From assembly GCA_945868845.1 (NCBI GenBank), contig CAMBMS010000002.1, positions 186,001 to 250,000 of the forward strand: DNA of 64,000 bases, given 5' to 3'. The translations under genes were made by a program, and so were the position numbers. The stretch comes from Asaia bogorensis (GTDB lineage: Bacteria; Pseudomonadota; Alphaproteobacteria; Acetobacterales; Acetobacteraceae). Positions 29,483-34,653 of the stretch are shown one piece after another. Numbering within the stretch: the stretch's first letter is position 1; each line of letters opens with the position of its first letter. Below the pieces are notes generated by a model, which saw only the letters and a list, made by a program, of their open reading frames with translations, did not search any database and was not told the origin of the DNA.

Positions 29483-30080
29483 ATGATCGCGTGGGGCGTT
29501 CCGTCAAGTATGCGTGCGTTTCTGCTGGGGGGCTGGGGCATGAAGATCGGGCGCAGGGCTTTGCTGGTTGCGGTGGCGATCGTATTGGGCGCGGTGGTGG
29601 GGTCGCGCGCAGCGCTGGCGCAGCCGGTGGGAGAATTGTCGGTGGCGCCGCCATCGGGGGCGCCGCGGATATTGGTGGTGATCCCGGGCGACCGCGCGGC
29701 GCGGACGGGCGCGGCGGATATGGCGGCGGGCTCGGTCGATCTGGTGACGTTGATTTTTAACTATCACGATCTGGGGCATCTTGGCGATTTTTAACTATCA
29801 CGATCTGGGGCATCTTGGCGTCGATCGCGATGCGATGAACCGGGCGTTGAAATCGAGCGGGTATTATTTGATCGTCGATCATGCGGGCCGGACCGGGCCA
29901 GAGATTTCCGAGGCGGAAACGCTGCATCAAATCGAGCAGGTGTTCTTGCGGCGCGAAGTGGCAGCGGCGGGGTTTCGGGTGGTCGCGGAGGGGAATGTCG
30001 TGCGCAAACCGAACGACCCGCGTGACAAAAACAGTTCCGACCTGCTGCGGTCGAAGAATGAATTCGTTTTGGGTTTGTGA
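29483..30080 (+). pseudogene. Secreted class I methyltransferase-like protein, broken by a 34-bp duplication and a deletion
   Basis: The gene opens with a signal peptide (MKIGRRALLVAVAIVLGAVVGSRAALAQ), passes to SADLVTL-type text as GSVDLVTLIFNYHDLGHLG, and resumes in another frame with DLGHLGVDRDAMNRALKSSGYYLIVDHAGRTG and EAETLHQIEQVFLRREVAAAGF. The latter matches the C-terminal half of predicted periplasmic SAM-dependent methyltransferases, with NPNDPRDKN-like ending. A perfect 34-bp tandem duplication at 29753-29820 shifts the frame. The SAM-binding region normally found after the signal peptide is also missing, so restoring the frame would not give a normal enzyme. Confidence 0.78.
29753..29820 (+). 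repeat. Perfect 34-bp tandem duplication
   Basis: Copies 29753-29786 and 29787-29820 are identical and directly adjacent; each encodes FNYHDLGHL in its own frame. Because 34 is not a multiple of three, the second copy throws the reading frame off. Perfect identity shows that the event is recent or actively copied. Confidence 0.95.
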
Positions 30081-30102: not shown

Positions 30103-30798
30103 GTGTTTACTGGGAAAGTTATTATCGTGACCGGAGCGGCGGGGAATGTAGGCTCCGCCCTAGCTGGATTACTGGCGGGGCGAGGGGCGCGGATCGCGGC
30201 AGTGGATACGGTGAAGGATCGGCTGGAGGCGGTGGTGGCGGGTTTGCCGGGTACCGGGCATCTGGCGTTGTCGGACTACGATCTGACCGATGCGGCGGCG
30301 ACGGAGGCGCTGGTGGTGCGGGTACGCGCTTCATGCGGACGGCTGGATGGGGTGGGGACGACCGTGGGCGGTTTTGCTATGGCGAAGCTGGCGGATGCTG
30401 GGCTGGAGCAGTGGGAGCATATGTTCGCGCTGAATGTGAAGACCACCTGGAATATTTATCGCGCCGCCGTGCCGGTGATTCGTGCTGGTGGCGGCGGGGC
30501 GTTGGTGGGGATCGGCAGCGCGGCCGGGTTGAAGGGGGGCGGCGAAATGGCGGCCTATGGCGCCACCAAGAGTGCTGTGATGCGGCTAACGGAAAGCCTA
30601 GCCGACGAGCTGCGTGGAGATCGCATTCGTGTTAACGCGGTGCTGCCGAGCACGATCAATACGCCGCAGAATCGTGCCGCGATGCCGGGGGCGGATACGT
30701 CGCGCTGGGTGCGGCCGGTGGAAGTGGCGGAGGCCATGGCGTTCTTACTTTCGGATCGTGCCAGCGGGATCAGCGGCGCGTTATTGCCGGTGGGGTGA
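30103..30798 (+). CDS. SDR family oxidoreductase
   Basis: The 231-residue short-chain dehydrogenase has the cofactor motif TGAAGNVG at 10-17, the catalytic serine in GIGSAAG, and the active site YGATK, so it looks functional. A GTG start at 30103 is proposed because GGAGGAGGGA lies just upstream and the family N-terminus (FTGKVIIVTGA) begins there. The C-terminus (SDRASGISGALLPVG) is normal for the family. The next gene, encoding a binding protein, starts 1 nt after the stop, suggesting a shared transcript. Confidence 0.85.
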   Translation: MFTGKVIIVTGAAGNVGSALAGLLAGRGARIAAVDTVKDRLEAVVAGLPGTGHLALSDYDLTDAAATEALVVRVRASCGRLDGVGTTVGGFAMAKLADAGLEQWEHMFALNVKTTWNIYRAAVPVIRAGGGGALVGIGSAAGLKGGGEMAAYGATKSAVMRLTESLADELRGDRIRVNAVLPSTINTPQNRAAMPGADTSRWVRPVEVAEAMAFLLSDRASGISGALLPVG

Positions 30799-30799
30799 A

Positions 30800-31786
30800 A
30801 TGATGCTGCGTTTATTCAAAATTTCTTTGGGTTTCGTGCTGATGGGCGCGACGGCGGAGGCGGCCGATAAGGTAAATTTTGGCCTCGATTGGAAGGCGGA
30901 GGCGGAGTACGGCGGCTATTACCAGGCGGTGGCAACCGGCATTTACGCGAAGCATGGGCTGGAGGTGGAAATTCATGAAGGCGGGCCGCAGATCAATCAC
31001 ATGCAGTTGCTGATCGCCGGGCGGCTAGATTTTAACCTGGGCGGCGGCCGGGCGATCGAATTTGCGCAGGAAGGGCTGCCATTCGTGGCGGTGGCGGCGA
31101 TTTTCCAAAAGGAGCTGGCCACACTGCTCGCCCATCCCGGGCAGGGAAATGATAGTTTTGCGGCGCTCAAGGGAAAACCGATCATGATCGGGGCCGATAC
31201 GCGCAATGGCTGGTGGCTGTTCCTGGCGGCCAAATATGGATTTTCCGACAGCCAGATCCGTCCTTATACGTTCAACTTGGCGCCGTTTCTGGCGGATAAA
31301 AATGCGGTACAGCAGGGCTATATCAGCAGCGAGCCCTTCCTGATGCGCCAGGCCGCCCGAATCGATCCGGTTGTGCTCGCGCTGTCGGATGCTGGGTATC
31401 AAGGCTATGCAAATATCATTACCACCAGCGCGAAACTGGTGGCGAGTAATTCCGGGTTGGTGCAGCGGTTCATTACCGCGTCCATCGAAGGGTGGTATTC
31501 TTACTTGTATGGTGATCCGGGGCCGGCGAACCGGATGATCCGGCGGGTTAATCCGGATATGCCGGCCGATCTGATCGACTTCGGGCGGCAGACGATGATT
31601 GCGCGTGGGATAGTGGATTCGGGAGATGCATTAACCCTGGGTATCGGTGCGATGACGGATGCGCGTTGGAAAGCGTTTTATGAGTCGATGGTGGCCGTCG
31701 GAGTGTATAAGCCGGGGGTTGATCTGGCGAAAGCCTATACGACCCGGTTCGTCAATCAGCGGGTGGGGATGGAGGCGAAAAATTAG
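30800..31786 (+). CDS. ABC transporter substrate-binding protein, NMT1/THI5-like
   Basis: The 328-residue periplasmic binding protein has a signal peptide (MMLRLFKISLGFVLMGATAEAA, cleavage near residue 22) and the NMT1/THI5-like opening VNFGLDWKAEAEYGGYYQAVATGIYAKHGL. Relatives bind pyrimidine precursors of thiamine, sulfonates, or related small molecules. No permease or ATPase gene is adjacent, so the transporter partners must lie elsewhere. The start overlaps the SDR stop region directly, and the PRTase-HAD gene follows 5 nt downstream. The ligand cannot be determined from the sequence. Confidence 0.88.
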   Translation: MMLRLFKISLGFVLMGATAEAADKVNFGLDWKAEAEYGGYYQAVATGIYAKHGLEVEIHEGGPQINHMQLLIAGRLDFNLGGGRAIEFAQEGLPFVAVAAIFQKELATLLAHPGQGNDSFAALKGKPIMIGADTRNGWWLFLAAKYGFSDSQIRPYTFNLAPFLADKNAVQQGYISSEPFLMRQAARIDPVVLALSDAGYQGYANIITTSAKLVASNSGLVQRFITASIEGWYSYLYGDPGPANRMIRRVNPDMPADLIDFGRQTMIARGIVDSGDALTLGIGAMTDARWKAFYESMVAVGVYKPGVDLAKAYTTRFVNQRVGMEAKN

Positions 31787-31791
31787 CGCAG

Positions 31792-32739
31792 ATGGTTGTG
31801 AAACCACCGCAGTGGAAGGGCCTGAATACCGGAAAAATGCCGCGCTTCATTGGCTATGATCAGGCAGAGCGGATGGTGGCGGCGCTGCTAGGTGACGTAT
31901 CCGCACGGGGCGTGCGGGCGGTGGTGGCGATCCCGCGCGGCGGACTGGTGCCGGGGACTATGGTGTCCTGCATGCTAGCCTTGCCCCTTTACATGATCGG
32001 GTGGGATCGCCGGTCCGGCTCTACGGCGTGGATTGGCGATGCGCCAGAGGAGAAGTGCGTGTTGCTGGTGGATGATTGCTGTGCCACTGGGGCGACGATG
32101 CAAAACGTGCGCGATGCGTTGGTGGGGCATGGGTTCGACTGTGCTACATTCAGTATTGTACATGATCCGGAGACCACTCGGTTCGTGCCGGATTATTCGC
32201 ATGCGATGACGGAGTTCTTTCGGTTTCCCTGGGAGCGCGGGGAGGCAACGCCAGCAGCGCGGGCGCAGCGCGCGCAAGGCGAACCGGCAGATCGGGCATA
32301 TGAGGCGCCGTTTTTTGGCCTCGACTTGGATGGTGTGTTTCTGCCCGATGTGCCGCGCGCGCATTACGACGCTGATCTGAAAGCGGCGTTGCAGCGGCGG
32401 CGGCTGCTGGAACCGTTTTCCGTGTTACCGCCATTCGACGCGGCACGCTCGGTGGTAATTACCGGGCGGCCCGAAAGCGATAGGGCGGAGACAGAAGCCT
32501 GGTTGGCACAATTCGGCTATCGTGGATTGCGACTGGAATGCCGACCGGCGGATGTGTCCGCCGAGATCGGCGCGGTGGCGCGCTATAAGGCGATGACGGC
32601 GACGCGCTGGGGTTGCACGCATTTTATCGAAAGCGAGGCCGAGCAGGCCATTCGTATCGCTGCGCTGGCGCCGCATCTGATGGTGTCCTGGTGGGTGGCC
32701 GATGAGGTGCGGGCCTGGGTGATCGGTGCAGCAGGGTAG
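31792..32739 (+). CDS. Phosphoribosyltransferase domain fused to a HAD-like phosphatase domain
   Basis: This 315-residue protein joins two catalytic modules. Residues 15-150 form a type I phosphoribosyltransferase with the PRPP-binding loop VLLVDDCCATGAT at 90-102 and a conserved AIPRGGLVPG near 47-56. Residues 173-315 form a HAD-like domain with motif I FGLDLDGVFLPD (D178, D180) and motif II VITGRPES near 228, then RYKAM providing a possible motif III lysine. Neither half lacks its key residues. Together these suggest a nucleobase or nucleotide interconversion or salvage step, possibly linked to the binding protein upstream. No established family name was recalled. Confidence 0.75.
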   Translation: MVVKPPQWKGLNTGKMPRFIGYDQAERMVAALLGDVSARGVRAVVAIPRGGLVPGTMVSCMLALPLYMIGWDRRSGSTAWIGDAPEEKCVLLVDDCCATGATMQNVRDALVGHGFDCATFSIVHDPETTRFVPDYSHAMTEFFRFPWERGEATPAARAQRAQGEPADRAYEAPFFGLDLDGVFLPDVPRAHYDADLKAALQRRRLLEPFSVLPPFDAARSVVITGRPESDRAETEAWLAQFGYRGLRLECRPADVSAEIGAVARYKAMTATRWGCTHFIESEAEQAIRIAALAPHLMVSWWVADEVRAWVIGAAG

Positions 32740-33114: not shown

Positions 33115-34653
33115 ATGAATGGCGCGGAAAGTCTGGTGCACTCCCTTTTGCATAACGGAGTGAAAGTGTGTTTCACCAATCCGGGCACGTCGGAGATGCA
33201 TTTCGTGGCGGCATTGGATCGGGTGCAGGGAATGCGGTGTGTGCTCGGATTGTTCGAGGGGGTGGTGACCGGGGCGGCGGATGGGTATTACCGCATGGCG
33301 GACAAGCCGGCGGCGACCTTGCTGCATTGCGGGCCCGGCCTCGCGAACGGGTTGGCCAATCTGCATAATGCGCGGCGCGCCGGTTCTGGAGTAGTGAACA
33401 TTCCAGGGGATCAGGCGACGTATCACCGCCCGCTGGATGCGCCGTTAACGGCGGATACTGAGGGTTGGGCGCGTGGCGTTTCGGCCTGGGTGCGCACGGC
33501 GAATTCGTCGACCACCGTGGGGTCGGATACGGCGCAGGCCGTGCTGGCGTCGCGGTTGGGGCATGGGCAGATTGCCACCCTCATCCTGCCGGCGGATACG
33601 GCGTGGGGCGAAGGGGGCGTGACTGGCGCGAAGTTGGATGTGCCACCGCGGCCAACATCGGCGCCGCAACAGGTTCGTGATGCGGCCGCGGTGCTGCGGC
33701 GCGGGGAGCCAACGATCTTGGTGCTGGGTGGTACGGCATTACGCGAAGGCGCATTGGCCGACGCGCATCGGATCGCTGCAGCAACGGGGGCAAAGTTAAT
33801 AGCGGAGGGCTCGAACGCGCGCGCGCAGCGTGGACAGGGGCGCTATCCGCTGGATCGCGTGCCCTATGTGGTGGATCAGGCAACGAAGGTGTTGGCGCCG
33901 TATCGGCATGTGGTGCTGGTGGGCGCGATCCAGCCGACGGCGTTCTTTGCCTATCCGAACAAGCCTGGATACCTAACCGCGCCGGGCGCTGAAATACACG
34001 TGCTGGCGCGGAGGGAACAGGACCCGGCGGAAGCTTTGGCGCGGCTGGCCGAAGAACTAGGCGCGCCGCGCGTGGCATTGCCATCCGTGGTGAAGCCGGA
34101 GGGGCCGGGGAAGGGAAAACCTACTTTGGACGCGATCGCGCAGACCGTTGCCGCGCTGATCCCGGAGAACGCGATCGTAGTGGATGAGAGTGTGACCACC
34201 GGGCGTGCTTTCTTTCCGCAAACCTATGGTGCCGCGCCGCATGACTGGTTGCAGAATTGCGGTGGCTCAATCGGCTATGGCCCACCGGTCGCGGTAGGCG
34301 CGGCGGTGGCCTGCCCGGATCGCCGGGTGGTCGGGCTGCAGGCAGATGGTTCGGCGATGTATACGTTGCAGGCGCTGTGGACCCAGGCGCGCGAGCAACT
34401 GGATATCACCACAGTGATTTTTTCTAACCGAAAATACCAAATCCTGATCGGTGAGCTGGCCAATGTCGGCGCCAATCCGGGACGCACGGCGATGGATATG
34501 CTGGATATCGGTAATCCTGATCTCGACTGGACAAAGCTCGCCGCTGGTATGGGGGTGGAGGCCGCGCGTGCCACAACCTGCGAGGAGCTGGCCGATCTGA
34601 TGGCGCAATCCTATAGGCGCAAAGGCCCGTTCCTGATCGAATTGGTAATGTGA
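33115..34653 (+). CDS. Thiamine diphosphate-dependent enzyme, acetolactate synthase large subunit-like
   Basis: The 512-residue protein has the three-domain architecture of ThDP decarboxylase/synthases. The catalytic glutamate is E48 (LGLFEGVVTGAADGYYRMA), and the ThDP-Mg motif reads QADGSAMYTLQALWTQAREQL with ADG instead of GDG. The absence of a regulatory subunit gene and the presence of GTSEMHFVAALDRV point to the broad acetolactate-synthase-like / benzoylformate-decarboxylase-like group rather than biosynthetic IlvB. GGAGGAGATAACAAGG precedes the ATG. The substrate is unknown. Confidence 0.88.
   Translation: MNGAESLVHSLLHNGVKVCFTNPGTSEMHFVAALDRVQGMRCVLGLFEGVVTGAADGYYRMADKPAATLLHCGPGLANGLANLHNARRAGSGVVNIPGDQATYHRPLDAPLTADTEGWARGVSAWVRTANSSTTVGSDTAQAVLASRLGHGQIATLILPADTAWGEGGVTGAKLDVPPRPTSAPQQVRDAAAVLRRGEPTILVLGGTALREGALADAHRIAAATGAKLIAEGSNARAQRGQGRYPLDRVPYVVDQATKVLAPYRHVVLVGAIQPTAFFAYPNKPGYLTAPGAEIHVLARREQDPAEALARLAEELGAPRVALPSVVKPEGPGKGKPTLDAIAQTVAALIPENAIVVDESVTTGRAFFPQTYGAAPHDWLQNCGGSIGYGPPVAVGAAVACPDRRVVGLQADGSAMYTLQALWTQAREQLDITTVIFSNRKYQILIGELANVGANPGRTAMDMLDIGNPDLDWTKLAAGMGVEAARATTCEELADLMAQSYRRKGPFLIELVM

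Follow-up and report, generated by a model that had tools for sequence, protein, structure and literature searches.

A phosphoribosyltransferase–HAD phosphatase fusion of Acetobacteraceae that is co-inherited with a periplasmic binding protein

The fusion gene and its two domains

The window, a stretch of 64,000 nucleotides from Asaia bogorensis, carries on its forward strand a compact run of three genes, which encode a short-chain dehydrogenase (SDR), a periplasmic binding protein (SBP) and a protein that joins a phosphoribosyltransferase (PRT) to a HAD phosphatase domain, here called PRT-HAD. The open reading frame of PRT-HAD (31792-32739) has no internal stop and codes for one protein of 315 amino acids. 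The SDR is separated from the SBP by 1 nt and the SBP from PRT-HAD by the 5 nt given in the original prediction, with the SBP stop codon at 31784-31786 and the PRT-HAD ATG at 31792. The features, all on the forward strand (+), are as follows.

30103..30798, +: SDR, 1 nt ahead of the SBP start (orthologues L003, L004)
30800..31786, +: NMT1/THI5-type periplasmic binding protein (SBP) with signal peptide MMLRLFKISLGFVLMGATAEA, co-inherited with PRT-HAD (PF09084; trees)
31046..31060, +: SBP loop G-R-A-I-E, present in all 12 PRT-HAD-linked SBPs (SBP alignment)
31792..32739, +: PRT-HAD fusion gene, 315 aa (single frame; full-length relatives)
31843..32241, +: type I PRT domain, residues about 18-150, archaeal HGXPRT/XGPRT-like fold (PF00156; 1vdm; VIA)
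32059..32100, +: PRPP loop LLVDDCCATGATM, residues 90-103, with Ala98 within (sequence, alignment of relatives)
32299..32736, +: HAD phosphatase domain, residues about 170-315, PNKP-3'-phosphatase/LNS2 type (Pnkp1 profile match; VIA)
32323..32334, +: HAD motif I, DLDG, residues 178-181 (sequence, alignment)
32461..32463, +: HAD motif II, Thr224 of ITGRP (223-227) (sequence, alignment)
32587..32589, +: HAD motif III, Lys266 (sequence, alignment)
32629..32631, +: HAD motif IV acidic residue, Glu280 of HFIESEAEQ (sequence, alignment)

The N-terminal half matches the Pfam family Pribosyltran (PF00156, E 3.6e-8, 33.3 bits against a cut-off of 26.3 bits), and the family profile searched against the PDB retrieves the Pyrococcus purine PRTase 1vdm at E 2.4e-17. 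A structure model of the full protein, built with only four sequences (pLDDT 65), scores Z 14 by VIA against the archaeal HGXPRT-type structures 5bqo, 4z1o and 1vdm. For the C-terminal half the Pfam search returned no family above cut-off; searched against the PDB, a family profile of this half matched the bacterial Pnkp1 phosphatase domain (E 1.7e-4). Modelled alone (pLDDT 71), this half is closest by VIA to the T4 PNKP 3'-phosphatase (Z 9.7, rmsd 3.0, 116 aligned residues), followed by Pnkp1 (Z 9.3) and the LNS2 domain of Nir2 (Z 9.1), with unrelated structures ranking below. Plant FUT1, which filled the top Foldseek rows for the HAD half (E 6e-4), was rejected, as it aligns with an rmsd of 8-9 and a low TM-score, against Z scores above 9 for PNKP by VIA.

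PRT-HAD shares with the 3'-phosphatases of T4 PNKP and Pnkp1 a HAD core bearing DxDG, (S/T)GR and Lys motifs; it differs from them in having no kinase or ligase domain and in its motif IV, which reads ES..EQ. Of 19 full-length relatives, 17 retain residues D178, D180, G181, T224, K266 and E280. Such relatives occur at 12 other Acetobacteraceae loci (47-72% identity), in other Pseudomonadota and in Bacillota, and the presence of the same fusion in more than 20 independent records rules out a sequencing or assembly artefact. The original prediction of a PRT fused to a HAD domain, with an intact PRPP loop (at the place predicted) and DLDG motif, is thus borne out by domain searches and structure models, which match both folds; the remaining HAD motifs are in place too. 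PRT-HAD is a genuine, old and conserved two-domain fusion, from which we infer both catalytic activities.

Comparison with purine phosphoribosyltransferases

Could PRT-HAD be an ordinary 6-oxopurine salvage enzyme that carries an accessory HAD domain? Its fold and its best sequence matches are those of archaeal and bacterial hypoxanthine/xanthine/guanine PRTases, and with XGPRT and archaeal GpT it has in common the type I PRT fold, the PRPP loop and a C-terminal FPWE segment. In 6-oxopurine PRTases, an Asp of the PRPP loop serves as general base and a Lys recognises the purine O6. PRT-HAD differs at both sites: Ala98 occupies the column of the general-base Asp of 1vdm (PRPP loop DDxxDTG), and Pro126 that of its O6-recognising Lys. 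Because the catalytic Asp and the O6-binding Lys are absent, guanine, hypoxanthine and xanthine are unlikely substrates, and to judge from these residues PRT-HAD is unlikely to be a standard 6-oxopurine PRTase. Its ATG loop presumably resembles that of adenine PRTase. PRT-HAD also lies far under the cut-off of the XPRT model (NCBIfam NF006613, 31.7 bits versus 138), and has a HAD domain fused to it.

The genomes that encode PRT-HAD bear on the same question. A true XPRT accompanies PRT-HAD in six of the ten, by which we reject PRT-HAD as a general XPRT replacement, and a genome of the same genus (G077, 85% complete) has neither XPRT nor PRT-HAD. A separate XPRT was not found over cut-off in the window genome (G000; 32.4 bits in a genome-wide search), although 131 of the 150 family genomes have one; this observation speaks for 6-oxopurine salvage, which we regard as very improbable. 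The original prediction had envisaged a compact salvage, repair or signalling enzyme. Nothing indicates repair or signalling, and no repair genes were seen near PRT-HAD; salvage in its plain 6-oxopurine form is made unlikely by the missing Asp and Lys and by the coexistence with XPRT.

Salvage enzymes retain the phosphate. Adding ribose-5-phosphate and then removing the phosphate would instead yield a nucleoside at the expense of PRPP, a logic to be compared with nucleoside natural-product pathways and with glycan ribosylation.

Co-inheritance with the binding protein

What would the substrate be, if not a 6-oxopurine? The SBP encoded directly upstream belongs to PF09084 (E 8.8e-23, 81.8 bits versus a cut-off of 20.5), and its nearest solved relatives are the THI5-like SBP 4nmy and ThiY (3ix1), the latter a binder of a formylaminopyrimidine. 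Membership in PF09084 and tau/ssu-type ABC partners unite the window SBP with ThiY and 4nmy. The PRT-HAD-linked SBPs differ in carrying a clade-specific loop, and no riboswitch, including TPP, reached the Rfam gathering threshold at 12 loci (window, L003, L036, L055, L146-L150, L153, L155, L156).

The SBP adjoins PRT-HAD at nine of 13 Acetobacteraceae loci, frequently overlapping it or lying a few nucleotides away (window, L003, L004, L005, L035, L036 with one cupin gene between, L038, L039 and L040). At three others a DUF429-like gene stands directly upstream of PRT-HAD instead (L037, L041, L042), and at one neither gene does (L043), which counts against a substrate shared by the two proteins. 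The usual operon of the family runs SBP-ATPase-permease-DUF4169-DUF429, and DUF1491 and two SDRs point the opposite way, diverging from it (L146, L148); DUF429 was identified by Pfam, and the genes that we take to be DUF1491 and DUF4169 are so labelled from our own reading of the sequences. This gene order is conserved at L035, L036, L146-L148 and L158, and the genes occur in about 60% of family genomes. At L035 and L036, PRT-HAD is inserted into this operon, with the SBP on one side and the ATPase on the other. Three genomes (that of the window, G089 and G149) have the SBP outside the operon and beside PRT-HAD, and the ATPase-permease part on another contig (L055, L157, L158). The window SBP is therefore not the orphan that it had been called, because contig C18 of the window genome carries matching ATPase and permease genes (permease C18:55847-56587, 65% identical to the L036 permease). 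The SDR had been thought to share one imported substrate with SBP and PRT-HAD; its orthologues are confined to the two closest relatives (80% in L003, 75% in L004), with different SDRs or none directly upstream elsewhere, and only the tie to the SBP stands.

That tie is visible in gene content and in trees. Among 150 family genomes, the SBP occurs in 86, the permease in 87 and the DUF429-like gene in 90; PRT-HAD is present in ten, all of which hold the SBP except G129 (73% complete). The eight SBPs closest to that of the window (65-72%, among 86 genomes) are those of the eight other SBP-holding PRT-HAD genomes, and a tree of SBPs unites the 12 PRT-HAD-linked sequences in one clade with support 100/99. 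In the permease tree, it takes five changes to account for the nine PRT-HAD genomes, and their monophyly is rejected (AU p = 0.0013); the RpoB tree likewise requires five changes for PRT-HAD genomes and rejects their monophyly (p = 0.012). In these tests the group was set by the presence of PRT-HAD, not taken from the shape of a tree. SBP and PRT-HAD distances correlate with r 0.69, or 0.63 with permease distances partialled out, versus 0.35 for SBP and permease; permease and PRT-HAD distances also correlate (0.59), and the tree tests therefore weigh more than the distance correlation. The neighbourhood survey that had been proposed thus reveals a consistent pairing, and the co-inheritance suggests that PRT-HAD and the neighbouring SBP handle the same imported compound.

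Linkage alone can yield co-inheritance, and the pair might have travelled on one DNA segment without any common substrate; in three genomes where the genes are now apart (G051, G014, G133) they may once have adjoined. Yet a loop of these SBPs has been rewritten. All 12 share GRAIE, where the other 27 SBPs mostly have N-S-F-L-x-x-N, a loop two residues longer; positions 144, 206 and 207 (P0002 numbering) also differ in a nearly fixed manner. By analogy with the type II SBP fold, the GRAIE loop would line the ligand cleft. The pair has moreover outlasted separation from the operon in several lineages, and we consider mere co-transfer to be rather unlikely.

What does the transporter carry? At 12 of 22 sister-lineage loci (L155, L156, L159-L178), the SBP-ATPase-permease genes include or flank a gene for a PRK07583-type cytosine deaminase; the L155 enzyme matches the PRK07583 equivalog over cut-off at E 8e-184. 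These neighbours, together with the likeness to ThiY, favour a nucleobase-like ligand for the transporter family, perhaps with a variant of it as the ligand of the PRT-HAD-linked SBP. However, the deaminase-associated SBPs form a different sub-clade (47-54% identity), so that the deaminase context may not be telling for the PRT-HAD-linked SBP.

The explanation that we favour, while granting it somewhat less than an even chance, is that PRT-HAD acts as a bifunctional enzyme on an imported, nucleobase-like heterocycle and makes the corresponding ribonucleoside from it. The periplasmic SBP, with its specialised pocket, would pass the compound to an ABC transporter whose permease and ATPase genes lie elsewhere in the genome. 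The PRT domain at the N-terminus would then convert the compound and PRPP to a 5'-phosphoribosyl product and pyrophosphate, trapping the product in the cell, and the C-terminal PNKP-type HAD domain would take off the 5'-phosphate to leave the ribonucleoside. From folds, motifs and co-inheritance we infer the activities, the order of the steps, the nature of the substrate and the molecule shared with the SBP. If this explanation is right, the tight inheritance of the SBP offers a concrete handle: its ligand should be the enzyme's substrate, and both could be found by one ligand screen. The pair would also exemplify a binding protein that switches specificity while the permease stays. It is possible, though we put it forward as doubtful, that we are dealing with an undescribed one-chain family of ribonucleoside-making enzymes, inherited with a re-specified SBP that borrows the resident ABC permease, as an import-and-ribosylate unit for a heterocycle.

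The same genes could serve detoxification: if the transporter leaked a toxic base analogue into the cell, the analogue would be ribosylated, and the HAD domain would keep the harmless nucleoside out of the nucleotide pool. Such a role would account for the fusion of a phosphatase to a PRTase, which is wasteful in salvage, and for the patchy spread among family genomes. But resistance genes and efflux pumps were not noticed beside PRT-HAD, and co-inheritance with an importer suits use more than defence; we judge detoxification improbable.

Downstream of PRT-HAD, at 33115-34653 of the window, lies a gene for a TPP-dependent, acetolactate-synthase-like enzyme (PRK07586), which may belong to the PRT-HAD pathway. 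In L153 and L178, homologues of this type (67% and 64%) are next to genes for SBPs of the window SBP's family, and the stretches read there lack PRT-HAD.

Distant relatives and ribofuranosyltransferases

Outside the family, relatives with both domains (25-33% identity) are encoded on plasmids of Brevibacillus, Jeotgalibacillus, Rhodobacter and Sinorhizobium, and by one further member of the class. Rhizobium has another full-length relative, and two Pseudomonadota genomes (G758, G820) have full-length relatives near the window type. The tree divides into clade A (Acetobacteraceae, Bacillota, G758) and clade B, separated by one branch with 100/100 support; its branches are long, which calls for caution with its fine detail. 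Clade B genes lie within polysaccharide clusters, with flippases, glycosyltransferases, a sugar-phosphate transferase and a GMC oxidoreductase. One genome (G033) holds one copy of each clade, so that the two types coexist in one cell.

Might PRT-HAD, then, be a PRPP-dependent ribofuranosyltransferase with a sugar or glycan acceptor? The reaction logic of PRT plus HAD is proven in capsule and O-antigen ribofuranosyltransferases (PMC10299916, PMC12096443, PMC11127046). Like PRT-HAD, gPRT-PRP of Klebsiella, Bcs3 (CriT/CrpP) of H. influenzae type b and Cj1432 of C. jejuni combine a PRPP-using PRT fold and a HAD phosphatase in one chain; their sequence of transfer and then 5'-dephosphorylation would be shared by PRT-HAD if the proposed import-and-ribosylation model is right. 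The distant clade B in polysaccharide clusters, and its coexistence with clade A in G033, likewise favour a glycan acceptor, and the cluster context of clade B also weighs against a heterocycle as substrate. Several differences set the window protein apart, however. In Bcs3 and Cj1432 the HAD domain is N-terminal to the PRT domain (PMC10299916, PMC12096443), whereas in PRT-HAD the order is reversed, with PRT (18-150) ahead of HAD (170-315). In CrpP of Bcs3, some 100 residues are inserted as a helical cap, and of the two Asp of DxD just the first is present (PMC10299916); PRT-HAD misses this large cap, having about 40-42 residues from DLDG (178-181) to ITGRP (223-227), and retains both Asp. The gPRT-PRP enzymes are encoded in glycan clusters, and the window gene and its Acetobacteraceae orthologues in an SBP/ABC context, a glycan context being found only in clade B. 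The PRT half is nearest to purine PRTases, and the described ribofuranosyltransferases 7SHG and 8A0C are absent among the PDB matches listed for profiles and models, although they may still be kin. We consider a glycan acceptor for the window protein unlikely. Clade B, by its cluster context, may well comprise candidate ribofuranosyltransferases with reversed domain order. Its proteins are annotated just as 'phosphoribosyltransferase' and are encoded in exopolysaccharide clusters, in genomes of Rhizobium-like bacteria and of other Pseudomonadota (L069, L070, L073, L074, L049, L050, L047).

The favoured explanation, a ribonucleoside-making enzyme fed by the SBP, has to accommodate two further sets of relatives. 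Those at L046, L048, L071 and L072 (Bacillota and two other Pseudomonadota) have no SBP, so the fusion works there without one. At L005 (3016-3930) and L048 (7980-8870) the PRPP loop is intact and HAD motif I is lost, with motif III lost as well in L048; by their motifs these would be natural phosphatase-dead versions, and the phosphatase step would not always be needed. The loss of HAD motifs beside a kept PRPP loop suggests that transfer is the core activity of PRT-HAD.

Some other origins and roles were considered and rejected. Against a phage origin, a search of 50,697 phage records gave matches to the PRT half only and none at full length, viral contigs had no full-length relative either, and PHROGs matches were PRT-only or weak PNK. 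A defence role was set aside, with a PADLOC match limited to a 24-residue stretch of the PRPP loop (E 0.008), as was a Ter-type PRTase/TRSP system, for which PRTase_2 (PF15609) scored 11.5 bits against a cut-off of 28.8 and TRSP was unmatched. On the Brevibacillus plasmid (L046, 5425-8906), PRT-HAD has another setting, downstream of genes for a response regulator and for a sensor-kinase-like, ATP-binding protein. In the window itself, two overlapping frames at 29483-30080 resemble one broken gene for a secreted methyltransferase-like protein, in which NYHDLGHLG is repeated across a frame change near 29780-29800; this is probably a pseudogene or a frameshift.
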